Below, piece after piece: positions 50,461 to 62,675 of a stretch of DNA of 64,000 nt (within the stretch, counting starts at the first letter, position 1; each line of letters begins with the position of its first letter). Both the position numbers and the translations under genes were made by a program. This DNA comes from Pseudomonas sp. SORT22 (lineage in GTDB: Bacteria > Pseudomonadota > Gammaproteobacteria > Pseudomonadales > Pseudomonadaceae): the NCBI RefSeq assembly GCF_018417635.1, contig NZ_CP071007.1, positions 124,001-188,000 on the forward strand, read 5' to 3'. The notes below the pieces were generated by a model, which was given only the letters and a program-made list of their open reading frames with translations, was not told the origin of the DNA and did no database searches.

Positions 50461-50461
<1 letters not shown>
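49682..50461 (+). CDS. glmR: DeoR-family transcriptional regulator (GlmR-type)
   Basis: 259 residues. N-terminal DeoR HTH (about 6-60: [35 protein letters not shown]) and a C-terminal sugar-phosphate sensor domain with DSGSTTAAM and [10 protein letters not shown]. In pseudomonads this protein sits before glmS and controls amino-sugar genes. Start at 49682 ([10 protein letters not shown]). Its stop shares one base with the glmS start, so glmS is translationally coupled. Confidence 0.93.
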
Positions 50462-52296
<1,835 letters not shown>

Positions 52297-52766: not shown

Positions 52767-52838
52767 ATGAACTCTGCAATTGACCTGTTTCAAACTGAAG
52801 TGACTGGCGTTACCACCAAGGGTGTTTGCTTGTGGTAA
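52767..52838 (+). CDS. 23-residue peptide: putative modified-peptide precursor or regulatory leader peptide
   Basis: ATG at 52767 has an ideal Shine-Dalgarno AAGGA seven bases upstream. The peptide begins MNSAIDLF and ends TTKGVCLW before TAA; it has one Cys (21) and one Trp (23), both in the last three residues. It is followed after 9 bp by a perfect terminator hairpin and then by the AdoMet decarboxylase gene. Two readings fit: a precursor peptide modified by the radical SAM enzyme (precursors are often set apart by a leaky terminator, and PqqA is about the same size), or a leader peptide whose translation controls read-through, as TnaC and the ornithine-sensing SpeFL do for other operons. 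I recognise no homologue. Confidence 0.6.
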   Translation: MNSAIDLFQTEVTGVTTKGVCLW

Positions 52839-52847
52839 GAGCGTGAT

Positions 52848-52880
52848 AAAAGAGGGGGAAAGAAATTTCCCCCTCTTTTT
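52848..52880 (+). terminator. Strong terminator/attenuator between the 23-residue ORF and the enzyme genes
   Basis: Perfect 14-bp stem: AAAAGAGGGGGAAA (52848-52861) and TTTCCCCCTCTTTT (52866-52879), GAAA tetraloop, ending in a run of five T. Only 9 bp after the ORF stop and 44 bp before the next start, so every operon transcript must pass it. Confidence 0.93.
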
Positions 52881-52924
52881 AATTGTACTTACTCGACCTC
52901 TCAGGGACAGGAGCAACGACCTTC

Positions 52925-53314
52925 ATGGACGACTTTGGCTATCATACTATTTGGGATATTACCGGTGCTGATGCACGCTTGTTGAAGGACGCGCCGGCGT
53001 TGCATAACTTTTTCCTCGGTACCTTGCAACGTTCGCGTTTCACGGTGTTGGACCATTTGACGCACAAGTTCAGTGCCGGAGGTGAAGGCGTTACCGGTCT
53101 GTACTTGTTGTCTGAGTCGCACCTGTCCTACCACACCTACCCGGAAACTCATTACATCAGCATCGACGTTTATACCTGCGGTTCCAACAATGTCTCAATC
53201 AATGAAGGCATTCAGGGCTTCTTCGGCAACGAAGTGCAGATAACGACGCGCACGTTGCTGCGCGGCAGTCATGTGCTTGTGGAAGAAGGGGTGGTGAATG
53301 AAACTTGTCAATAA
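52925..53314 (+). CDS. S-adenosylmethionine decarboxylase-like pyruvoyl enzyme (short SpeD type)
   Basis: 129 residues, the length of the class 1B bacterial/archaeal AdoMet decarboxylases. The self-cleavage site is intact in LLSESHLSYHTYPE: cleavage before Ser65 would create the pyruvoyl group; His70 and Cys85 (in DVYTCG) match the conserved catalytic His and Cys. The family makes decarboxylated SAM, the aminopropyl donor for spermidine; some homologues have shifted to ornithine or arginine. AGGAG lies 11 nt before ATG 52925; a TTG at 52883 sits inside the terminator and is rejected. No aminopropyltransferase gene is in the operon. Overlaps the next gene by 17 bp. Confidence 0.85.
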   Translation: MDDFGYHTIWDITGADARLLKDAPALHNFFLGTLQRSRFTVLDHLTHKFSAGGEGVTGLYLLSESHLSYHTYPETHYISIDVYTCGSNNVSINEGIQGFFGNEVQITTRTLLRGSHVLVEEGVVNETCQ

Positions 53315-54704
53315 CGGAATGGTCAAGTTCGATTACCAGTTCCCCTTGTACAATTTCTTTTTTCCTTCGCAATCACTGGACGTGTTTCGCCCCAGTGAAA
53401 CACAACTGACGACGCTGCTGAACCATGCCAACAGCCAATCAACCTCACGGGCGTTGTACTTTCATATTCCGTTCTGTGAAGCGATCTGTTCGTTCTGCCC
53501 GTTCACCCGCGGCTTGTACAAAAACGAAGAGGATATTAACCGTTACACCAAGGCGCTGATCAAGGAAATTGAGTACAAATCGCGCTTGGTCGACTTCAAG
53601 GCAGTACCGGTCAGGGCCATTTTCTTTGGCGGGGGAACGCCGTCGCTATTGTCGCCGCGGAATATCTATGACATCGGTGAGGCATTACACCACTACTTCG
53701 ATATGTCGACGGTGGAAGAGTTCTCCTTCGAGTTCAATATCACCAGTGTCACCCGAGAACGCACCCTTGCACTCGCGGACATTGGCGTGACCCATGCCCG
53801 CTTCGGTTTGCAGACCATCGACCCGACCTGGCGCAAGCTGTTTAACCTGAATGAGGACATCCGCGAAATCGAACGCGCCGCCGCGTTGCTGGTGCCGACC
53901 TTCAGGCACGTGTTGTGCGACATCATGTATGGGATGAACGGCAGTAACGAAAACCAGACCCTGTGTGACATCGACAAAGCGGTCGAACTGGGCCTGAGCA
54001 ATATCGACATTTACCCGATCAACAATGTCGCCACCTCGGTAAAGCTGCACAAGCAAATCAGGGAGCGTACGGCGGAAGTGTTCCCGGCCATGCGCAAGCT
54101 GAACATGAAGCTGATGATTGACGAGCATATGCGCCACAAGGGTTTTGTCCCGTATAACGGCCATGGCTACGTGCGCCAGGCGAGCGCAGCGTCGCCTCTG
54201 ATCACCCGCGACTACTCGTTCATTTACCACGAGCACGTCTATGGCTATACAAACCATGACCTGCTGGGCTTCGGCGTCGGCGCCATCTCGTCGGTGGCTG
54301 AAAATGTGATTACCAACACCTCATTGCGTGAGCAATACATCGCCAAGATGACCGCAGGTGACTATGTCTGCCAGGTCAGCCAGCATGCTCCGGTGCTTGA
54401 TCTGGTCAAGCCACTGGTACTGCGCCTGCCGTATCACGGCGAAATCGAAAAATCCAAAGTGGCGATGAGCCAGATGCCGCAAGGGCTACTGGACAGGGTT
54501 CAGGAACTGGTCAAGGCCGACCTGATAGTTGAAACGGATGCGACCTTCGAACTGACCAGGCTGGGTTGGTTATGGTACAGCAACATTATGTTTTACTTAA
54601 TTCCTGAAAGTGAACAAAACATCTTGAAAAAGATAGTCTTCGAGAAGCTTAATGCCAACGGACGCGACATTACTCGGGACGAGTTAATCTACTCCGCAGG
54701 CTAG
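53298..54704 (+). CDS. HemN-like radical SAM enzyme
   Basis: 468 residues. The 4Fe-4S motif CEAICSFC (Cys60, Cys64, Cys67) follows YFHIPF, the form seen in HemN/HemW and in class C radical SAM methylases and cyclopropanases, not in SPASM peptide-modifying enzymes. FFGGGTPSLLSP is the SAM-binding GGE-like region. The C-terminal part (about 370-468) resembles the HemN C-terminal helical domain. Not coproporphyrinogen dehydrogenase: the context is wrong and sequence is divergent throughout. The substrate is unknown; carbon methylation, cyclopropane formation or another radical step on an amine or peptide is possible. ATG 53298 lies within the preceding gene; ATG 53319 is an alternative. Confidence 0.85.
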   Translation: MKLVNNGMVKFDYQFPLYNFFFPSQSLDVFRPSETQLTTLLNHANSQSTSRALYFHIPFCEAICSFCPFTRGLYKNEEDINRYTKALIKEIEYKSRLVDFKAVPVRAIFFGGGTPSLLSPRNIYDIGEALHHYFDMSTVEEFSFEFNITSVTRERTLALADIGVTHARFGLQTIDPTWRKLFNLNEDIREIERAAALLVPTFRHVLCDIMYGMNGSNENQTLCDIDKAVELGLSNIDIYPINNVATSVKLHKQIRERTAEVFPAMRKLNMKLMIDEHMRHKGFVPYNGHGYVRQASAASPLITRDYSFIYHEHVYGYTNHDLLGFGVGAISSVAENVITNTSLREQYIAKMTAGDYVCQVSQHAPVLDLVKPLVLRLPYHGEIEKSKVAMSQMPQGLLDRVQELVKADLIVETDATFELTRLGWLWYSNIMFYLIPESEQNILKKIVFEKLNANGRDITRDELIYSAG

Positions 54705-54720
54705 AACCACCCAGCAGGCA

Positions 54721-55941
54721 ATGGATATGCAGGCACTAGCGTTAAACCACGGTACACAACGGCTGTCAGCCGCCTACTTTTTTTCAAAATGCGGTGAGTT
54801 TGCTTTCGAAACAGCCTTTGCAGTGGCCGTGGTGACCTTGACTGAGGCCGACTTTTTGCTGATTGGCCTGGTGTACTTTTTTCGTTACTTGCCCAGTGCA
54901 TTGTTTTCGCCGATTGGTGGCTGGCTAGCAGACCATCGGCAGAAAAAACACACACTGATTTCGGCAGAACTTTTAAAAAGCGTAGTGGCCGCACTGCTGT
55001 TTGTGTTGTTTGAATTTGCCGAGGCCACGGTGGCGGTGGTTATTATCGCCTCGATGGTGATGACCGCACTTGATTGCCTGTACACGCCGAGCTTTCGTGC
55101 CTATTTCCCCGATATAGTGGACGACGGCCATCTGGCGTCGGTAAACAGCGGGGTGCAAGTGATCGAAGATGTGTCTTCGATTATCGGACCGTTGATATTT
55201 TCACTGATTTCGATCGTGCTCGATGCCAGTTATGCGTTTGCGTTTTTCTCGGTCAGTTTGTTGCTGTCGGCCGCCTGTAGCGCCACCCTGGTCTCGAGCG
55301 TGACAACTTCGAAGGGGCGCTTCGATGTTTGGGCAATCTACAAGGACACCACACGCAGCGTGGGTAGTTTACGCAAGCTCAATACACCCCTGTTTACCGT
55401 GATCTGTTGCACCACCGTGTGTGCAATGTTTGCCACGTCGGTTATTCGCTTCATATTGCCGGCATCGGTTATGGACCATTTTCAGTCCGAGGCTGCGGTG
55501 GGGTATATCTTTTCCCTGCTGGCTTTCGGTACGGTTATCGGTGGCATGCTGTATGTAACACTCAACAAGTCAACCACCGCCCGCTCGGTGATTATTTATT
55601 GGTTACTGTATGGCGGGCTATTTTTACTGGCTGCCGTCGCCCTGCAGTTCAATACGTACCTGTTTATAGTTCTGTTGCTGTGCGTGGGTTTTGTCGGCGC
55701 CTTTGTTGATATTGCCATCATTACCAATATCCAGACGCTGTCCAGTCCCAATGAAGTCGGCAAGAATTTTTCCCTGTACTACTTCACGGCGGTTATTGGT
55801 GATGCAGTGTCCGGGCTGATCGCCAGCCTTATGTTTCTGCTTGTGGGGCCGGCTACGTTTGTTGGCATGACGTTCATGCTGTGTATTGCACCGCTAGGTT
55901 GGAGCGCAAAAAAAGATGTTACAGACAAGGATTGTTTGTAG
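54721..55941 (+). CDS. MFS exporter (EntS-like MFS_3 type)
   Basis: 406 residues with about 12 membrane helices. The loop 2-3 motif is GGWLADHRQKK, and the overall pattern resembles EntS/MFS_3 exporters of siderophores and small secreted metabolites. Membership in the operon suggests export of the product, which is also a common self-resistance route. Starts 16 bp after the radical SAM gene; a second ATG (54727) has the better spaced AGCAGG. The last 26 bp overlap the decarboxylase gene. Confidence 0.88.
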   Translation: MDMQALALNHGTQRLSAAYFFSKCGEFAFETAFAVAVVTLTEADFLLIGLVYFFRYLPSALFSPIGGWLADHRQKKHTLISAELLKSVVAALLFVLFEFAEATVAVVIIASMVMTALDCLYTPSFRAYFPDIVDDGHLASVNSGVQVIEDVSSIIGPLIFSLISIVLDASYAFAFFSVSLLLSAACSATLVSSVTTSKGRFDVWAIYKDTTRSVGSLRKLNTPLFTVICCTTVCAMFATSVIRFILPASVMDHFQSEAAVGYIFSLLAFGTVIGGMLYVTLNKSTTARSVIIYWLLYGGLFLLAAVALQFNTYLFIVLLLCVGFVGAFVDIAIITNIQTLSSPNEVGKNFSLYYFTAVIGDAVSGLIASLMFLLVGPATFVGMTFMLCIAPLGWSAKKDVTDKDCL

Positions 55942-58060
55942 TGCGGCAGTCGGGATTGAAGCACTTCCCGGCGTGGCGCTTGGGACATTTGCAGGGCGCG
56001 GTCAGTTGGCGTCAGCATCGGCGTTGGTGCTGTGCGTTGAGGATGCGCTGTCGGCAGATGTGGTCGATTGCGTCGCGGCCTGGGGCACGCCACTGTTTGT
56101 GCTCCATGGCAACGGGTACGCTGCACTTCCGGCAGTGCTTGCGGATCTTCAACCAACCTTGCTCCAGGTACCGCTGAGTGCGCACGATATTGCGCGGGTA
56201 GTTGAAACTGCCAAGGCATTTGACCTGGCTTCACTGCCACCTTTTACCTCGGCAGTCGCAGAGTTTGTCTCGCGCAAACGGCCTACCTTTGCTTGCCCCG
56301 GGCATCAGGGCGGCCAGTGCCTGGACCTGCATCCGGCCGGGCTGCGCTTCAAGCAATTGCTTGGCAGCGAGGTATTCAAGGTCGATGTGCCGCACGCGGC
56401 TCCCGAGCTGGGTGACGTACTCAGCCATGAAGGTCCGGTGGCCCAGGCTGAACGGCTGGCCGCAGAAGTGTTCAACGCCGATGAAACCTACTTCGTGCTC
56501 AATGGTACTTCCACCGCAAACAAAGTCGTCACCAGCGCGTTGCTGGCTGCGGGCGATCTGGTATTGATGGATCGCAACAACCACAAGTCGGTGTACCTGG
56601 GCGCATTGGTACAAAGTGCCGCCAGGCCGGTATACCTCGATAATTTCCGCGATGGGTGTGGCGTGCTGGGTGGCTACAAAAGACATGCCCTGGATGAGCA
56701 ACAACTACGCCTGAAGGCGGCCCGTATCGATCCGTCCAAGGCGCGGCAGCAGCGCCCATTTCGTCTGGCAGTTGTTCAGCACGCAACCTGCGATGGCGTT
56801 GTGGTCGACGCCGCTGCTCTGCTGCAACGGATTGGTCACCTGTGTGACTACGTACTCTTCGATTCCGCCTGGTTGGGCTACGAACCTTTTGTTGAGCTAC
56901 TGGCGCAGCGCTCGCCGTTGAACATTGCCCTGACGGCGGATTGCCCGGGGATCATCGTCACGCAATCGGTCCACAAGCAGATGTCAGGCCTGTCCCAGAC
57001 CTCGCAGATCCATAAAAAAGACAGTCACATACGTAACCAGCCACGCTACTGCTCACGATCGGTATTCAACAGCGCGTTCATGCTGCACGCCTCGACCAGC
57101 CCGTTCTATCCATTGTTGATGTCATTGGAAGTCAATGCCGCGATCCATGCCAATGGCAACGGCAAGCGCGCGTGGAGTGCGGCAGTGGCAATGGCCATGG
57201 GTTTCAGGCGCGAGGTTGCCCAGCGTTGCCGTGTTATTCAGCCTTACTATGGCGACAGGCGGTTGCCGGCGGGGCAGGGCGATACATCGCTGGAGGTGTA
57301 TGCCCAAGTGTTTCAACCGGTTCGCCATGAGACGCTGGGGGCCAGCCCGATCGAGTCTGACTTGCACTACCTGGACCCTTGCAAGGTCATCTTTACAACG
57401 CGCAAGTTGCACACTGACGAGCAGGGCGGGTTGCCCGCTATTCCAGCGAGTATCGTCACCGCCTACCTGCGCGAGATGAATTTCACTCCGGAGAAATCTG
57501 ACTTCTACAACGTTACCCTGTTGGTTTCGCCCTCTACCGAGGCTGCGCAGCTCTCTCGCCTGGCGCACACTCTGGCGCAACTTGAGCAGATGATCGAGGG
57601 TGAAGTCCCGGTGGCTGAGGCGTTACCTTCACTGGCAAGCGGCCAAGCTCGCTATAACGATTTATCGCTGCGCGAATTGTGCTGCGCCATCAACACCCTG
57701 TTCTCGCAGTATCAGATTGAGCAACTGCAATCAGACATTTTCAGTTCGGTGACGTCGGCGCAGGCCGAGTTGACGCCCTATGCGGCGCAGCAGGCTTTCA
57801 TCCGTGGTAACTACCAATTGGTCGCACTCGAACAAGCTTTAGGCTGTATTGCCGCAGAAGGCGTAATCCCTTACCCGCCGGGGGTTATGTGCATCGCGCC
57901 TGGGGAACGCTGGAACAGCTCGTTGATTCGCTACCTGAGCGCCATTGAAGCACTGAGTAACCAATACCCGGAATTTGCTCCGCATATTCAAGGCGTATAC
58001 CAATGCCTTAACAATGACGCCAGCGTGAGCCTGCAGGTTCACGTTCTGGCCACTGGCTGA
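55916..58060 (+). CDS. PLP-dependent ornithine/lysine/arginine-type decarboxylase
   Basis: 714 residues, the length of inducible fold-type-I decarboxylases (SpeC/SpeF/CadA). N-terminal wing domain (about 1-120), CPGHQGG near 129, the Schiff-base Lys354 in SVHKQMSGLSQTSQIH, and YPPGVMCIAPGERW near residue 660. Ornithine is the best guess, as sequence around the Lys looks like SpeC/SpeF, but substrate residues cannot be resolved by eye. Housekeeping ornithine decarboxylase of pseudomonads is a different copy elsewhere. GGAG lies 11 nt before ATG 55916. The stop overlaps the next start (TGATG). Confidence 0.87.
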   Translation: MLQTRIVCSAAVGIEALPGVALGTFAGRGQLASASALVLCVEDALSADVVDCVAAWGTPLFVLHGNGYAALPAVLADLQPTLLQVPLSAHDIARVVETAKAFDLASLPPFTSAVAEFVSRKRPTFACPGHQGGQCLDLHPAGLRFKQLLGSEVFKVDVPHAAPELGDVLSHEGPVAQAERLAAEVFNADETYFVLNGTSTANKVVTSALLAAGDLVLMDRNNHKSVYLGALVQSAARPVYLDNFRDGCGVLGGYKRHALDEQQLRLKAARIDPSKARQQRPFRLAVVQHATCDGVVVDAAALLQRIGHLCDYVLFDSAWLGYEPFVELLAQRSPLNIALTADCPGIIVTQSVHKQMSGLSQTSQIHKKDSHIRNQPRYCSRSVFNSAFMLHASTSPFYPLLMSLEVNAAIHANGNGKRAWSAAVAMAMGFRREVAQRCRVIQPYYGDRRLPAGQGDTSLEVYAQVFQPVRHETLGASPIESDLHYLDPCKVIFTTRKLHTDEQGGLPAIPASIVTAYLREMNFTPEKSDFYNVTLLVSPSTEAAQLSRLAHTLAQLEQMIEGEVPVAEALPSLASGQARYNDLSLRELCCAINTLFSQYQIEQLQSDIFSSVTSAQAELTPYAAQQAFIRGNYQLVALEQALGCIAAEGVIPYPPGVMCIAPGERWNSSLIRYLSAIEALSNQYPEFAPHIQGVYQCLNNDASVSLQVHVLATG

Positions 58061-59166
58061 TGTTGAAAGGTGCAAGGGCGCCATTGGTGGAATCAACCAA
58101 AGGTACGAACGAGCGCAAATTCATCCATGTCGACATGGACTCGTTCTTTGTCTCAGTAGAACTTCTGGATGCTCCGCACCTGGTTGGGCGCCCTGTGGCC
58201 GTGGGCGGGACAGCGGCTGAGCGAGGGGTGATCAGCACTGCGAACTACCTGGCCAGGGAATATGGAGTAAGAAGTGGTATCGCCACTGCAACGGCACAAC
58301 GGCTCTGCCCGGATCTGGTCCTGCTGCCGACCCGGTTTGAAGTGTATGAAGCCGTGACTCGAAGGCTCGATGCAATATTCCGACGCTATACCGACAAGGT
58401 TGAGTTCCTGTCACTGGATGAGGCGTCGCTCGAGGTCACCGGTCAGTCTGCATTCAACGGCTCGGCAACTCATATGGCCATGCACATCCGTGCTGCGATC
58501 GAGCAGGAGCTGGGGCTGACGGCTTCTGCCGGAGTCGCGCCGTTGAAGTACTTGGCAAAAATCGCCTCCGAGGTGCAAAAGCCCAATGGCCTGTTTGTCA
58601 TCGTGCCCAAGGATGTCCGCGGCTTTCTCGATGAACTTGATGTACGCAAGATTCCTGGCGTTGGTCCCAAAACTTACGCCGTGCTTGAGAACCTGGGCTG
58701 TCGGCAATGCAAACACGTCACCGAAGAGAAAATCCCGTTGCTCATGCGCTACCTCGGCGTGCATGGGTTTTATGTGTGGGAGCGATGTCAGGGAATAGAA
58801 GAGCAGGAAGAGCGAGTAACCCACATCAAGTCGATTGGTATTGAACGAACACTCCCCTTCGATTGCCACGATTTTTCCAGCTGCCTGCAAGAGCTGGACA
58901 GATTGCTGGAAGGTCTGAGGGAACGCATTTCCGAAATGGGCGATGACTACCTGATCATCAAAAACCTGGTAAAGCTCAAGTTCTCGGACTTCTCGATTTC
59001 GTCGACCGAGGCGGCTTCCAACACCCTCAGTCAGGAGACAGTGACCACCCTGTGCCGGTTGCTCTGGGACACCAGGCGCGAGGGCCGCTCGGTGCGTTTG
59101 ATCGGGTTGTCGGTAAAGGTCAAAAGAAAGATCCAGGACGATATTCAATTAGAGCTTCCCTGGTAA
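58060..59166 (+). CDS. DinB-like Y-family DNA polymerase IV (operon-linked paralogue)
   Basis: 368 residues with a complete Y-family fold. Catalytic Asp25 in IHVDMDSFF, steric gate Phe30, SLDEA with Asp120/Glu121, TASAGVAPLKYLAKIAS, helix-hairpin-helix KIPGVGPKTYAVLE, little-finger domain (about 240-355) and a C-terminal QLELPW that fits the beta-clamp docking consensus. An extra 18 residues precede the usual DinB start (an in-frame later start has no ribosome binding site). Its ATG shares an A with the decarboxylase stop, so it is translationally coupled to a metabolic gene, unlike the chromosomal dinB. Expected to bypass N2-dG or alkylation lesions. Confidence 0.88.
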   Translation: MLKGARAPLVESTKGTNERKFIHVDMDSFFVSVELLDAPHLVGRPVAVGGTAAERGVISTANYLAREYGVRSGIATATAQRLCPDLVLLPTRFEVYEAVTRRLDAIFRRYTDKVEFLSLDEASLEVTGQSAFNGSATHMAMHIRAAIEQELGLTASAGVAPLKYLAKIASEVQKPNGLFVIVPKDVRGFLDELDVRKIPGVGPKTYAVLENLGCRQCKHVTEEKIPLLMRYLGVHGFYVWERCQGIEEQEERVTHIKSIGIERTLPFDCHDFSSCLQELDRLLEGLRERISEMGDDYLIIKNLVKLKFSDFSISSTEAASNTLSQETVTTLCRLLWDTRREGRSVRLIGLSVKVKRKIQDDIQLELPW

Positions 59167-59200: not shown

Positions 59201-59542
59201 ATGGTTAGGCGCTACGAACTCCCCAATGCGGCGTGGATATTGATCATGGATCTGGTTTCAACCACACAAAAGACCGGCCGGCCTCGTAATGACGACCGGC
59301 AGATGATCAACGGCATCTTCTGGATTCTTTGCTCTGGCGCAGCCTGGCGTGACTTGCCGGAACGCTTTGGCGCTTGGTCGACGGTGTATCAACGTTTTCG
59401 CGACTGGCGTGACGATGGCACCCTGGATCGTGTACTGGACCGGCTGCATGTTCGCCTCACCGAAGAGGGCCTGATCGACATGGACACCTGGACCCTCGAT
59501 CCTGTCACTGTCAGGGAGCAACTGGTCAAATGTTGTGCCTGA
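59201..59542 (+). pseudogene. IS5-family transposase remnant (first ORF, 3' truncated)
   Basis: 113 codons. The N-terminus YELPNAAWILIMDLV...RPRNDDRQMINGIFWILCSGAAWRDLPERFG is the DUF4096/helix-turn-helix part of IS427-group IS5 transposases. After LHVRLTEEGLIDMDTWTLDPVTVRE the reading ends; the DDE catalytic half is missing and nothing like it follows. A decayed insertion sequence at the junction between the island operon and hcnABC. Confidence 0.8.
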
Positions 59543-59645: not shown

Positions 59646-59693
59646 TAGTCCTGACGCGCGCTTGGCTTAGTGTGCGCAGTCCATGTTTCTTTT

Positions 59694-59703
59694 TCACGGA
59701 CGA
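59694..59703 (+). promoter_or_regulatory. RsmA/RsmE binding site over the hcnA Shine-Dalgarno
   Basis: TCACGGACGA matches the consensus (A/U)CANGGANG(U/A) at every position. Its GGA is also the ribosome binding site, 9 nt before ATG 59710. Repression by RsmA/RsmE and relief by the GacA-controlled small RNAs is the known control of hcnA. Confidence 0.85.
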
Positions 59704-59709
59704 AAAGCT

Positions 59710-60024
59710 ATGCAGACTCTGGAGCGAAAGCTAGATATCCAGCCCCTGTCGCGGGCGGACATGACCATCGAACTCAACGGCCAGGCGGTGGCGGTCGCTG
59801 CCGGTGAAACCGTGCTCAGCGTGCTTAACGCCGTGGGCCTGCGCCAGGTGGCGCTTAACGATCACCAACAATTGACCGGCGCTTTCTGCGGCATGGGCGT
59901 GTGCCATTGCTGCCTGGTGTCGATCAACGGCCGGCCCAAGCGCCGCGCCTGCCAAACCGAGGTACAGCCGGGCATGCGGGTCGAAACCGGGACTAACCGT
60001 TTTGCCGGGCAGGAGGCACCATGA
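59710..60024 (+). CDS. hcnA: Hydrogen cyanide synthase subunit HcnA
   Basis: 104 residues. [2Fe-2S] ferredoxin-like subunit: Cys60, Cys65, Cys68 and Cys81 in FCGMGVCHCCLV...ACQT. With HcnB and HcnC it oxidises glycine to HCN and CO2 at the membrane. I start at ATG 59710 (MQTLERKLDIQPLSRAD), where the Rsm/Shine-Dalgarno site fits; an in-frame ATG nine codons upstream (59683) would be read through that site. Overlaps hcnB by 4 bp. Confidence 0.95.
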   Translation: MQTLERKLDIQPLSRADMTIELNGQAVAVAAGETVLSVLNAVGLRQVALNDHQQLTGAFCGMGVCHCCLVSINGRPKRRACQTEVQPGMRVETGTNRFAGQEAP

Positions 60025-61415
60025 GCTTGCGTCCAGTTATTGTCGGTGGTGGTTCGGCAGGTATGGCAGCGGCGATCGAGCTGGCCAGGCACGGTGTCTC
60101 GAGCCTGTTGTTTGATGAAGCCTCACGCCCGGGTGGCGTGGTGTTTCGCGGACCGCTGCGCAGCGGCGTCGACCTGGGCTACCTGGGTGCCCGCTACAGT
60201 AAGGCGCTGAAAAAACTGCACAAGGACTTCGCCGCCTGCGCCGATCGCATCGACCTGCGCCTGAACAGCCGTGTGGTCGGTGGGGACGAGCAGCGCCTGA
60301 TGGTACTCGATGGCGAAGAAACCCTGCACGAAATCGATTTTTCCCATCTGTTGCTGTCGGCCGGTTGCCACGAGCGCAACGTCCCGTTTGCCGGCTGGAC
60401 CTTGCCGGGTGTGATGTTGCTCGGCGGGCTTCAGTTGCAGATCAAAAGCGGTGTGGTCAAACCCCTGGGCAGTACCGTGATCGCTGGCACCGGGCCGTTG
60501 TTGCCGTTGGTGGCCTGCCAGTTGCACGCGGCCGGGGCGAAGGTTGCCGGCGTCTATGAAGCCTGCCCGTTCAGCAAGATTGCCCGTGAAAGTCTGGCGC
60601 TGATGAACAAGCCGCAGCTGTTCCTCGATGGCCTGAGCATGCTTGGCTACATGAAGCTCAACGGCATCCCCATGTACTACGGCTGGGGGATTGTCGAAGC
60701 CAAGGGTGAGGGTGAGCTGGCTGAAGTGACCGTGGCGCCCTACGGTGACGATTGGCAGCCGGACCTTTCCCGCGCCCAGCGCGAGCCGGCGCAAACCCTG
60801 GCGGTGGGCTACGGTTTTATCCCGCGCACCCAGCTCAGCCAGCAACTGGGCCTGGACCATGGCTTCAACGAAGACGGCTACCTGCGTCCAGAAAGCAACG
60901 TCTGGCAGCAAAGCAGCCAGCCGCACATCCACCTGGCCGGTGACATGGGCGGCATCCGTGGTGGTGAGGCGGCAATGCTCACCGGGCGCATCGCGGCTGT
61001 TTCGATCCTGCTGCAGCAGGAGGTACTCAACGCAGAAGAGGCGATCGAACTGCGCGAGAAATACCTCGGCCAGCTGGCAGCGATCAAACGCTTTCGCGCC
61101 GGGGTAGAGCGCTACACCCACCGCGGCACCAAGCAGATCGAGCTGCCGCAGGCGGACACGGTGATCTGTCGTTGCGAGCATGTCACCCGCAGCGACATCG
61201 ATCGCGCCCTGGAGCAGGGCGTCGAGGACATGGCCGGGTTGAAGATGCGCACCCGGGTGAGCATGGGCGACTGCCAGGGGCGCATGTGCGTCGGCTATTG
61301 CAGCGATCGCCTGCGCGAAGCGACCGGACGCGCCGATGTCGGCTGGCTGCGGCCGCGTTTCCCGATCGACCCGATTCCATTCTCTGCATTCCAGCAACTC
61401 GGCACGGAAGCCTGA
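60021..61415 (+). CDS. hcnB: Hydrogen cyanide synthase subunit HcnB
   Basis: 464 residues. FAD-binding GGGSAG (9-14) and a second nucleotide-binding part (AGDMGGIRGGEAAMLTG), then a C-terminal BFD-like [2Fe-2S] domain with Cys383, Cys385, Cys418 and Cys423. Electron-transfer flavoprotein of the complex. ATGA overlap with hcnA. Confidence 0.96.
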   Translation: MSLRPVIVGGGSAGMAAAIELARHGVSSLLFDEASRPGGVVFRGPLRSGVDLGYLGARYSKALKKLHKDFAACADRIDLRLNSRVVGGDEQRLMVLDGEETLHEIDFSHLLLSAGCHERNVPFAGWTLPGVMLLGGLQLQIKSGVVKPLGSTVIAGTGPLLPLVACQLHAAGAKVAGVYEACPFSKIARESLALMNKPQLFLDGLSMLGYMKLNGIPMYYGWGIVEAKGEGELAEVTVAPYGDDWQPDLSRAQREPAQTLAVGYGFIPRTQLSQQLGLDHGFNEDGYLRPESNVWQQSSQPHIHLAGDMGGIRGGEAAMLTGRIAAVSILLQQEVLNAEEAIELREKYLGQLAAIKRFRAGVERYTHRGTKQIELPQADTVICRCEHVTRSDIDRALEQGVEDMAGLKMRTRVSMGDCQGRMCVGYCSDRLREATGRADVGWLRPRFPIDPIPFSAFQQLGTEA

Positions 61416-61418
61416 AGC

Positions 61419-62675
61419 ATGAACAGAACCTATGATGTGGTCATCGCCGGTGGCGGTGTGATCGGTGCGTCCTGCGCCTACCAGCTGTCCAAACGCAAGA
61501 ACCTGAAGATCGCCCTGATCGATGCCAAGCGCCCGGGCAATGCCACCCGCGCGTCTGCCGGCGGCCTGTGGGCCATTGGTGAGTCCGTGGGCCTGGGCTG
61601 CGGGGTAATCTTCTTTCGCATGATGTCGGCCAAGCACAAGCGTGAAGCCCATGGCGCGGCAGTGGCGGTGGATTCGAGCACGCCGCACATCCTGCCGCAG
61701 TCGTTCTTCGACTTTGCCTTGCAGTCCAACGCACTTTATCCACAGCTGCACCGCGAGCTGATCGAGCGCCACGGCATGGACTTCAAGTTCGAGCGCACGG
61801 GCCTCAAGTACGTGATTTACGACGATGAAGACCGCCTCTACGCCGAGCACATCGTTGCGCAGATCCCGCACCTGGCCGACCAGGTGCGCTGGCTCGACCG
61901 CGATGCCCTGCGCCAGGCCGAACCTGCGGTGAGCCATGAGGCCCATGGTGCCCTGGAGTTTCTCTGCGATCACCAGGTCAGCCCGTTCCGCCTGGCTGAT
62001 TCCTATATGGAGGCGGCGCGCCAGAACGGTGTCGACCTGTTCCACAACACCAACATTACGGGTGTGCTGCATCAGGGTTCGCGGGTCAGCGGCGTGCAAA
62101 CCGCCGAAGAGGGCACCTTTCACTGCGATACCCTGATCAACGCCGCCGGCGCCTGGGCCGCAGACTTGAGCGAGTGGGCCACGGGCCTGCGGATTCCGGT
62201 CAAGCCGGTCAAAGGCCAGATCATCCTCACCGAGCGCATGCCCAAGCTGCTGCAAGGCTGCCTGACCACCAGCGACTGCTACATGGCGCAGAAGGACAAC
62301 GGTGAGATCCTGATCGGCAGCACCACCGAAGACAAAGGCTTCGACGTCAGCAACACCTTCCCGGAGATCAACGGCCTGGTTCAGGGCGCGGTGCGCTGCG
62401 TGCCGGAGCTGGCGCAGATCAACCTCAAGCGCACCTGGGCCGGCTTGCGCCCGGGCTCGCCGGACGAGCTGCCGATCCTGGGGCCGGTCAGCGAAGTCAG
62501 TGGCTACGTGAATGCCTGTGGACACTTTCGCACCGGCATCCTTACCTCGGCCATCACTGGCGTGCTGATCGACAAGGTCGTGAACCAGGAAACCCTGCCG
62601 CTGGATATCACCCCGTTCCTGGCCTCGCGTTTTGACCTGCTGGCTGTGGAAAACCAACAGGCTGCCCTGGCCTGA
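61419..62675 (+). CDS. hcnC: Hydrogen cyanide synthase subunit HcnC
   Basis: 418 residues. D-amino acid oxidase/glycine oxidase family, dinucleotide motif GGGVIG (11-16) and the C-terminal TWAGLRPGSPDELPILGP. Carries out the glycine dehydrogenation. Three bases after hcnB; ends before a shared hairpin. Confidence 0.96.
   Translation: MNRTYDVVIAGGGVIGASCAYQLSKRKNLKIALIDAKRPGNATRASAGGLWAIGESVGLGCGVIFFRMMSAKHKREAHGAAVAVDSSTPHILPQSFFDFALQSNALYPQLHRELIERHGMDFKFERTGLKYVIYDDEDRLYAEHIVAQIPHLADQVRWLDRDALRQAEPAVSHEAHGALEFLCDHQVSPFRLADSYMEAARQNGVDLFHNTNITGVLHQGSRVSGVQTAEEGTFHCDTLINAAGAWAADLSEWATGLRIPVKPVKGQIILTERMPKLLQGCLTTSDCYMAQKDNGEILIGSTTEDKGFDVSNTFPEINGLVQGAVRCVPELAQINLKRTWAGLRPGSPDELPILGPVSEVSGYVNACGHFRTGILTSAITGVLIDKVVNQETLPLDITPFLASRFDLLAVENQQAALA

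Follow-up and report, generated by a model that had tools for sequence, protein, structure and literature searches.

A recurring Pseudomonas gene block with a short peptide, an S-adenosylmethionine decarboxylase and a HemN-like radical SAM enzyme: a candidate mobile RiPP-like cluster

Organization of the block

Here we describe a six-gene block of Pseudomonas sp. SORT22, whose genome consists of 5.8 Mb in one contig. It lies within a stretch of 64,000 nucleotides (NZ_CP071007.1, positions 124,001 to 188,000; hereafter, the window), bounded by glmS (50461-52296) and by an IS4/5-type transposase fragment (59201-59542). An original prediction, made from the letters of the window, had described six collinear open reading frames (ORFs) with their overlaps, one gap and a hairpin as a pathway for a small exported compound. 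All these elements were found where it had placed them, and its family labels were confirmed by Pfam (AdoMet_dc, Radical_SAM, MFS_1, OKR_DC_1 and IMS/IMS_C). The features are as follows, where SAM stands for S-adenosylmethionine, MFS for major facilitator superfamily, ODC for ornithine decarboxylase and PLP for pyridoxal phosphate.

52767-52838, forward strand: peptide of 23 amino acids, MNSAIDLFQTEVTGVTTKGVCLW, with AAGGAA just upstream
52848-52879, forward strand: terminator-like hairpin behind the stop codon of the peptide, with a 14-bp stem and a 3' arm rich in T
52925-53314, forward strand: SpeD-type AdoMet decarboxylase proenzyme, 129 amino acids (PF02675, TIGR03330)
53298-54704, forward strand: HemN-like radical SAM protein, 468 amino acids, with Cys60/64/67 and His166-x-Arg168 (Pfam/NCBIfam, structures)
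54721-55941, forward strand: MFS exporter, 406 amino acids (PF07690, MFS_1, 5.2e-26)
55916-58060, forward strand: ODC-type PLP decarboxylase, 714 amino acids (OKR_DC_1, 5.3e-116, plus the C-terminal domain)
58060-59166, forward strand: DinB-type Y-family DNA polymerase, 368 amino acids (Pfam IMS/IMS_C)

The overlaps were of 17 bp (SpeD and radical SAM genes), 26 bp (MFS and ODC-type genes) and 1 bp (ODC-type gene and dinB), and the radical SAM and MFS genes were separated by 16 bp. The most probable start of SpeD is the ATG at 52925, at which its homologues begin; this corrects the assignment to the TTG upstream at 52883.

Recurrence and mobility

The distribution of the block was assessed in sampled genomes, plasmids, phages, viral contigs and one scan of genome contigs. 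The radical SAM protein, used as the query, matched nine of 398 sampled genomes of the genus at E <= 1e-60, the genome of the window included. The corresponding profile matched two of 369 genomes of the class (the same genome and a distant locus, L034) and, at E <= 1e-50, one of 398 genomes of the phylum, again that of the window. The scan of named genome contigs yielded eight loci, seven from Pseudomonas (P. lini, P. putida, P. gingeri, P. faucium and three 'sp.') and one from Photorhabdus bodei, four of the eight overlapping with genomes of the genus sample. The radical SAM family is rare and scattered.

The six genes were present in the same order in 11 Pseudomonas genomes. The occurrence of the genes together outside the window, set beforehand as the test on which the original prediction could fail, was thus found in ten other genomes, and the linked, recurring gene set supports its description of a coherent pathway block. 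The ninth genome of the genus sample (G070) carried the peptide, radical SAM, SpeD, MFS and ODC-type genes in a different order, and no dinB was found in the 19.5 kb examined there. Flanking genes were common within one group of loci (L013 and L028) and within another (L016, L017, L018, L025 and L026). Across groups, the flanks matched only singly and weakly (23-39%), apart from the transposase fragment shared by the window, L013 and L028. Since the flanks differ between groups, the block is mobile, and their comparison places its ends at the peptide and at dinB and its copies at about six sites. The N-terminal transposase fragment that follows dinB occupies the same place in L013 and L028 (71-77% identity) and has possibly accompanied the block for a long time.

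The genes were also found in other genera. The Xenorhabdus plasmid pXT141 contained all six, with dinB upstream and divergent. The six were also present in Photorhabdus, where the SpeD, radical SAM and ODC-type genes were frame-broken. An 11.6-kb plasmid of Glaesserella parasuis carried the peptide, SpeD, radical SAM, a cytochrome P450 and the MFS gene (the latter split across two frames), with neither ODC-type gene nor dinB. On the plasmid of Klebsiella FDAARGOS_775, the radical SAM gene had lost its 5' part next to an IS1-like element, and the MFS gene and a P450 gene directly followed by an ISL3 transposase were present; on that of Klebsiella INF237, the peptide and SpeD remained between IS1-like elements (the IS1-like label was assigned by eye). 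More distantly, an Alicyclobacillus plasmid encoded a radical SAM protein of 39% identity, a 132-amino-acid protein and a gene annotated as MFS, and a Cytobacillus plasmid (L024) encoded a radical SAM protein of 28% identity, a gene annotated as MFS and a DinB_2-family gene. In the homologue comparison, the MFS protein of the window matched neither of these two loci. The Klebsiella radical SAM gene had no match at the DNA level in 20,395 E. coli records. Viral contigs gave a single match to the radical SAM domain (22% identity) and none to the Cytobacillus protein, and 34 phage records gave a match, with identities of 22-29% among the 20 listed of the 34.

The locus L034 (genome G571) encoded a HemN-like protein of 33% identity with one in-frame TAG. 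Its neighbours were a gene for an ApyD-like RiPP radical SAM protein (RiPP, ribosomally synthesized and post-translationally modified peptide; 275.5 bits, cut-off 750) and a gene labelled by eye as similar to cyclopropane fatty acid synthase. Neither a SpeD match nor a likely short peptide was seen on this 6.8-kb contig. The ApyD-like neighbour of this distant relative speaks for a RiPP-like character of the family.

Taken together, the evidence favours a core of peptide, SpeD, radical SAM enzyme and exporter, with either the ODC-type enzyme and DinB or the P450 as variable parts. The membership of DinB proposed in the original prediction was upheld in part: dinB accompanied 13 of the 14 ODC-type loci, with none seen near G070/L027 or in the copies of the P450 type, and it is therefore a frequent part of the block, not a constant one.

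The peptide and the hairpin

Homologues of the 23-codon ORF were found at the ten other Pseudomonas loci, with 61-96% identity. The 11 peptides differed at few positions, all ended in C-L-W or C-M-W, and purifying selection on the peptide was indicated by a median ratio of nonsynonymous to synonymous substitution rates of 0.094 (from the 44 scorable pairs of 55). The conservation that the original prediction had asked to be checked was thus found, the ORF being kept ahead of the cluster genes, and a peptide was present at every SpeD-linked relative with an intact 5' end.

The peptides of Xenorhabdus and Photorhabdus (MESAMELFEVDINDCDLQGLCMW), Glaesserella (MENAIELFVSRKNEEHYDFNNVAW) and Klebsiella INF237 (MESAIELFVTESSAENYDFNSVAW) were read from the short ORFs at these loci; the peptide site is lost from Klebsiella FDAARGOS_775, whose copy is damaged. 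Those of G070 (MNAKSAKGFFKKNQQATSRVKEFGTRACW), Alicyclobacillus (a 10-codon ORF, MRDIVWDIVW, preceded by AGGAGGTGA) and Cytobacillus (a 15-codon ORF, MKKEWVALKNEWVAL, preceded by AGGAGGGGA) were picked by eye among several short ORFs, on the basis of their position, ribosome-binding site, ending and a hairpin 3' of the ORF. A C-terminal tryptophan (Trp) was present at 17 of 18 loci, and an N-terminal stretch resembling M-x-SAIELF in the Pseudomonas, Photorhabdus, Xenorhabdus, Klebsiella and Glaesserella copies. Given that the N-terminal part is kept between the Pseudomonas and the enterobacterial or Glaesserella copies and that the middle is variable, the peptide behaves like a leader and core. 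A gene-encoded, precursor-like peptide beside modifying enzymes, as expected of a RiPP, is thus found in the block, its division into leader and core being read from conservation, and the evidence for the gene set and its precursor is good. The peptide accompanies SpeD and the radical SAM enzyme rather than the ODC-type gene, because the Glaesserella and Klebsiella copies keep it without the latter.

A hairpin followed the peptide in 18 of 18 loci, with differing stem sequences. In 17 loci, the stretch after the peptide folded below dinucleotide shuffles, with z values from -1.2 to -4.8 (median -3.1), those of L016 and L022 being weaker than -2. No shared antiterminator was seen: in one of 17 loci (L014), upstream pairing to the 5' arm was better than 5% of mononucleotide shuffles, in a test whose script chose the wrong hairpin for two loci, L016 and L025. 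Attenuation of the Trp type was disfavoured on this basis. Between 52297 and 59700, no family of Rfam, leaders and riboswitches included, reached its gathering score, and the hairpin gave only sub-threshold matches to mir-627 (22.5 and 23.3 bits; gathering score 86). The simplest reading is that the hairpin is a partial terminator, which would yield more peptide than enzyme.

SpeD and the supply of decarboxylated SAM

The SpeD protein matched PF02675 (1.4e-22) and TIGR03330 (81.4 bits, above the curated cut-off of 75.65), and its closest solved structures were AdoMet decarboxylase proenzymes. The motifs LLSESH...HTYPE...TCG were intact in the window, and Glu64-Ser65, His70 and Cys85, which we take to be the self-cleavage and catalytic residues, were intact in 11 of 12 aligned rows. 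The cluster SpeD was the sole PF02675 match in eight of nine Pseudomonas hosts (G000, G052, G103, G157, G278, G283, G323 and G364, that of the window being among the eight and G070 the ninth), a count that covers this family of AdoMet decarboxylases; in a control set of 14 known genomes, PF02675 was matched in eight, including E. coli. Matches to Spermine_synth above the family cut-off of 22.9 bits were present in all nine hosts, strong in G070 alone (228 bits) and of 23-39 bits at best elsewhere. The cluster SpeD would be a source of decarboxylated SAM (dcSAM), and with no other PF02675 enzyme and no clear canonical consumer of dcSAM seen in most hosts, a private use fits.

The gene in the SpeD slot of Alicyclobacillus was considered as a dead SpeD; this reading is doubtful, with a Pfam match at an E value of 0.08 and a negative profile comparison. 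A SpeD of 44% identity was also found in a different small cluster on a Deefgea piscis plasmid (L030, 3492-8012), where its neighbours encode a protein weakly similar to FeeM, a redox enzyme that contains iron, a member of the DUF3419 family and a hydrolase with the beta-lactamase fold. It is possible that this represents another use of dcSAM beyond polyamines.

The radical SAM enzyme

The nearest solved structures to the radical SAM protein were HemN (1olt) and then NocN (9p2u), both of them two-SAM enzymes, and NocN acts on an indole group in a RiPP. Its AlphaFold model was useful in the barrel only, with a mean pLDDT (predicted local distance difference test) of 56 and values under 50 for residues 1-32, and Foldseek with this low-confidence model gave HemN 1olt as the top match. 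The CX3CX2C and GGGT motifs were present and the features of class C enzymes were found in the alignment: the Tyr that stacks on the second SAM and the Asp that contacts both SAMs (NocN Tyr34 and Asp196) were present in 29 of 29 rows. According to the parts of the NocN report drawn on here (PMC12871812), two SAMs are bound together and a methylene radical on the second adds to indole; Tyr96, Arg153, Asp196 and Ser225 form a network around the methionine part of the second SAM, and Arg171 holds the carboxylate of the first.

At the site of NocN Arg153, His was found in all 17 rows of the clade of the cluster enzyme, with Arg at 155, so that R-x-S is replaced by H-x-R. The cluster enzyme hence lacks the Arg which, with Ser at 155, was kept in the 12 other rows of the HemN family (Cytobacillus, L034, two paralogues of the window's own genome, NocN, HemN and six proteins of plasmid or phage records). 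The use of Arg153 as a marker comes from our alignment, since the NocN paper, in those same parts, does not call it defining. SpeD accompanied 15 of the 17 clade rows within the locus (in one case frame-broken), the remaining two being the IS-damaged Klebsiella copy (IS, insertion sequence) and Alicyclobacillus. Of the 12 other rows, the six record proteins were covered together with 200-base flanks, and NocN and HemN are not known to be linked to SpeD. As for the rest of the pocket, the clade carries Phe at the Tyr96 site, where some other rows likewise have Phe, or else His. At the Ser225 site it carries Asp in the 16 rows in which this position is occupied; L024, L034, the two rows annotated as HutW and one unannotated E. 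coli row share this Asp. Leu stands at the Arg171 site throughout the clade as well as in L024 and L034, and the other 10 rows keep Arg. If, as we infer, Arg153 of NocN holds the carboxylate of the second SAM, the change in the pocket fits a second SAM that lacks this group, i.e. dcSAM. For the use of dcSAM, the evidence is moderate.

The ODC-type enzyme, the P450 and the exporter

The ODC-type protein had intact PLP motifs, including SVHKQ. Its scores against the curated ornithine decarboxylase models (PRK13578, SpeF) lay below their cut-offs (686.3 against 794 for PRK13578, and 648.4 against 1310), and its substrate may therefore differ from ornithine; a Trp with an amine side chain is plausible. 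The Glaesserella P450 contained FGVGIHKCIG, presumably its heme-binding motif. Homologues of the MFS protein were found in 14 of 14 ODC-type loci and also in L021 and L022.

The DinB polymerase

The cluster DinB scored 393.6 against PRK02406 (cut-off 256), as expected of a DNA polymerase IV, and its catalytic motifs VDMDSFF and SLDEASL were present. It is a second copy, 42% identical to the other DinB of the genome. In the tree, the Pseudomonas cluster DinBs grouped with the enterobacterial type (support 100/98), apart from the Pseudomonas chromosomal dinB. An earlier tree, built without enterobacterial chromosomal DinBs, gave a single origin of the cluster DinBs in 100% of bootstrap trees; this was not upheld when a second Photorhabdus DinB and the E. 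coli DinB were added (16% of 200 bootstrap trees). A role of Pseudomonas DinB in the tolerance of alkylation damage is reported in the parts of PMC5261740 drawn on here.

The DinB_2-superfamily gene of L024 (8613-9095) lies after the exporter gene. Its product gave a weak mycothiol-S-transferase match and, in the family search, no match to polymerase DinB, to which it is unrelated; it could detoxify an electrophilic product.

Proposed pathway and alternative explanations

From the observed gene set, its conservation and linkage and the altered pocket, we infer a chemistry, a product and a role for DinB. The hairpin would let the output of peptide exceed that of the enzymes. The M-x-SAIELF-like stretch would be the recognition part of the peptide and the C-terminal residues up to Trp its core. 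SpeD would make dcSAM, and the radical SAM enzyme would hold an ordinary SAM at its cluster together with dcSAM in the second-SAM position. A carbon radical on dcSAM would then add to the indole or to another carbon of the core, giving a side chain with a free amine. Host peptidases would free a short product or a single modified amino acid, which the ODC-type enzyme would decarboxylate (in the other lineage, the P450 would oxidize it) and the MFS protein would export. DinB would copy past lesions that the product causes in the DNA of the producer. The original prediction had left open whether the compound was amine- or peptide-derived; a peptide-derived one is now favoured, with the C-terminal Trp as the likely target. 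We consider it rather probable that the block is a mobile RiPP-like biosynthetic cluster operating by this dcSAM-dependent pathway. The product may be DNA-damaging, for which the evidence is weak, and the complete scheme, in which an amine unit is grafted on the C-terminal Trp, the released diamine-like compound derived from Trp damages DNA and a dedicated translesion polymerase confers immunity, is unlikely to hold in every part.

Several observations weigh against the proposed pathway. As to the peptide, the Cytobacillus ORF lacks the terminal Trp, the SAIELF stretch is not found in the ORFs of G070, Alicyclobacillus and Cytobacillus, and no short peptide ORF was seen at L034; moreover, no protein of the block had a PqqD/RRE-type Pfam match at E <= 0.001 (RRE, RiPP recognition element) or a peptidase match. 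As to dcSAM, a weak Spermine_synth homologue could be another user, and the Alicyclobacillus gene in the SpeD slot has no catalytic residues and is doubtfully SpeD-like. In the pocket, the Leu at the Arg171 site means that the altered SAM site could be the first or the second, Arg168 could stand in functionally for the Arg that was lost and, as the 17 rows form one clade, the change may be a single event. Finally, dinB is absent near L027 and in the P450-type loci, and the Xenorhabdus and Photorhabdus cluster DinBs resemble the enterobacterial chromosomal one.

A short ORF with a terminal Trp codon and a terminator-like hairpin ahead of polyamine-type genes also recalls known regulatory leaders, such as SpeFL before speF-potE and those of the Trp type. 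The ORF would then act by arrest or attenuation, sensing ornithine, a polyamine or Trp and controlling read-through of the hairpin, and the product would be polyamine-like and made from free metabolites. We regard this as quite improbable, since the N-terminus of the peptide is kept across Pseudomonas, enterobacterial and Glaesserella copies, the peptide remains in copies without a visible ODC gene, repeats like those of multi-core precursors occur in two distant relatives (MRDIVWDIVW and the Cytobacillus ORF) and both a shared antiterminator and an Rfam leader were missing, as indicated above. A closer contender keeps the RiPP-like character and lets the radical SAM enzyme use two ordinary SAMs for a methylation, crosslink or cyclopropane, as the characterized class C enzymes do in the parts of the NocN report cited (PMC12871812). 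SpeD would then act later, on a SAM-peptide adduct, whose free amino acid end could in principle be decarboxylated by a pyruvoyl enzyme, or on another intermediate, or else supply dcSAM for a separate aminopropyl transfer; the Deefgea SpeD, which adjoins a DUF3419 gene, is in line with this. No other aminopropyltransferase was found in the block by Pfam, however, and the H-x-R pocket is limited to the mostly SpeD-linked clade, and this course appears somewhat unlikely.

The radical SAM protein is hardly a heme-degrading enzyme of the HutW/ChuW type, as automatically annotated in Xenorhabdus. HutW was indeed its best NCBIfam match, but the 154.9 bits lie far below the curated cut-off of 400, the pocket is unlike that of the two annotated HutW rows (L065 and L066) and no heme gene is annotated near the Xenorhabdus copy. 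With respect to DinB, it is a serious if somewhat doubtful possibility that it is a passenger or a mutator instead of a means of self-protection. Its absence near L027 and from the P450-type clusters, its upstream and divergent position in Xenorhabdus and the low bootstrap frequency of a common origin speak for this. On the other hand, dinB is the last gene in 11 of 11 six-gene Pseudomonas loci, at about six sites, is near the cluster in both Xenorhabdus and Photorhabdus and is not of the Pseudomonas chromosomal type.

Genes beside the block

A three-gene operon lies 3' of the block (59683-62675). Its proteins, which look to us like the hydrogen cyanide synthase HcnABC, matched 2Fe-2S, SoxA-like and ThiO-like families of NCBIfam, all below the cut-offs.

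Comparison with known systems

The statement of the original prediction that no described system has this gene set agrees with our search of open-access full texts, in which, among the matches listed, none was found. Judged by title and start of abstract, those matches included no description of a RiPP pathway with SpeD and a radical SAM enzyme, and full-text searching found no open-access paper that combined 'adenosylmethionine decarboxylase' with two RiPP phrases. A term search of the main text of a survey of Xenorhabdus and Photorhabdus clusters (PMC9177418) retrieved neither AdoMet or ornithine decarboxylase nor HemN. TvgB, which makes cyclopropylglycine according to the part of PMC9062424 considered, belongs to a different radical SAM system and was discarded as the same one.

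If the proposed pathway is true, the radical SAM superfamily would acquire dcSAM as a new co-substrate, the function of SpeD would extend beyond polyamine synthesis and self-protection by a translesion polymerase would be new to biosynthetic clusters. To our knowledge, no use of dcSAM as a radical SAM co-substrate was known before. These claims are directly testable because the core consists of three small genes.

The class C RiPP methylases NosN/NocN and TbtI belong to the same HemN family with CX3CX2C, and NosN/NocN act on a peptide substrate with an indole, as proposed here. The block differs from them in SpeD, the altered second-SAM pocket, a precursor of 23-29 codons and the absence of thiopeptide genes by Pfam. 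CC-1065 and yatakemycin come from a pathway that builds a DNA-damaging compound on a non-ribosomal scaffold. Their cyclopropanase C10P + C10Q also includes a HemN-like enzyme, according to the part of PMC6050322 drawn on here. The partner there is a methyltransferase, and that in the block is SpeD.

Microcin C combines a very short ribosomal precursor (the MccA heptapeptide), a SAM-derived aminopropyl group (MccD/MccE), a decarboxylase and an exporter with a ThiF-type adenylyltransferase, and is not known to use a radical SAM enzyme or SpeD. No MccB-like or ThiF-type adenylyltransferase was matched among the block proteins by Pfam. In the pathways of pyrroloquinoline quinone (PqqA) and mycofactocin (MftA), the C-terminal part of a short peptide becomes a small molecule by means of a SPASM-type radical SAM enzyme and a peptide chaperone; by contrast, the enzyme of the block is HemN-like and no chaperone was seen. 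Biarylitides and other P450-modified RiPPs, with a very short precursor and a P450, resemble the Glaesserella and Klebsiella form; across the copies of the block, the radical SAM enzyme and SpeD are constant and the P450 is optional. Finally, SpeFL-speF-potE and other polyamine operons place a short ORF before an ODC gene and a transporter, whereas the peptide of the block persists without the ODC-type gene and its core is formed by the radical SAM enzyme and SpeD.

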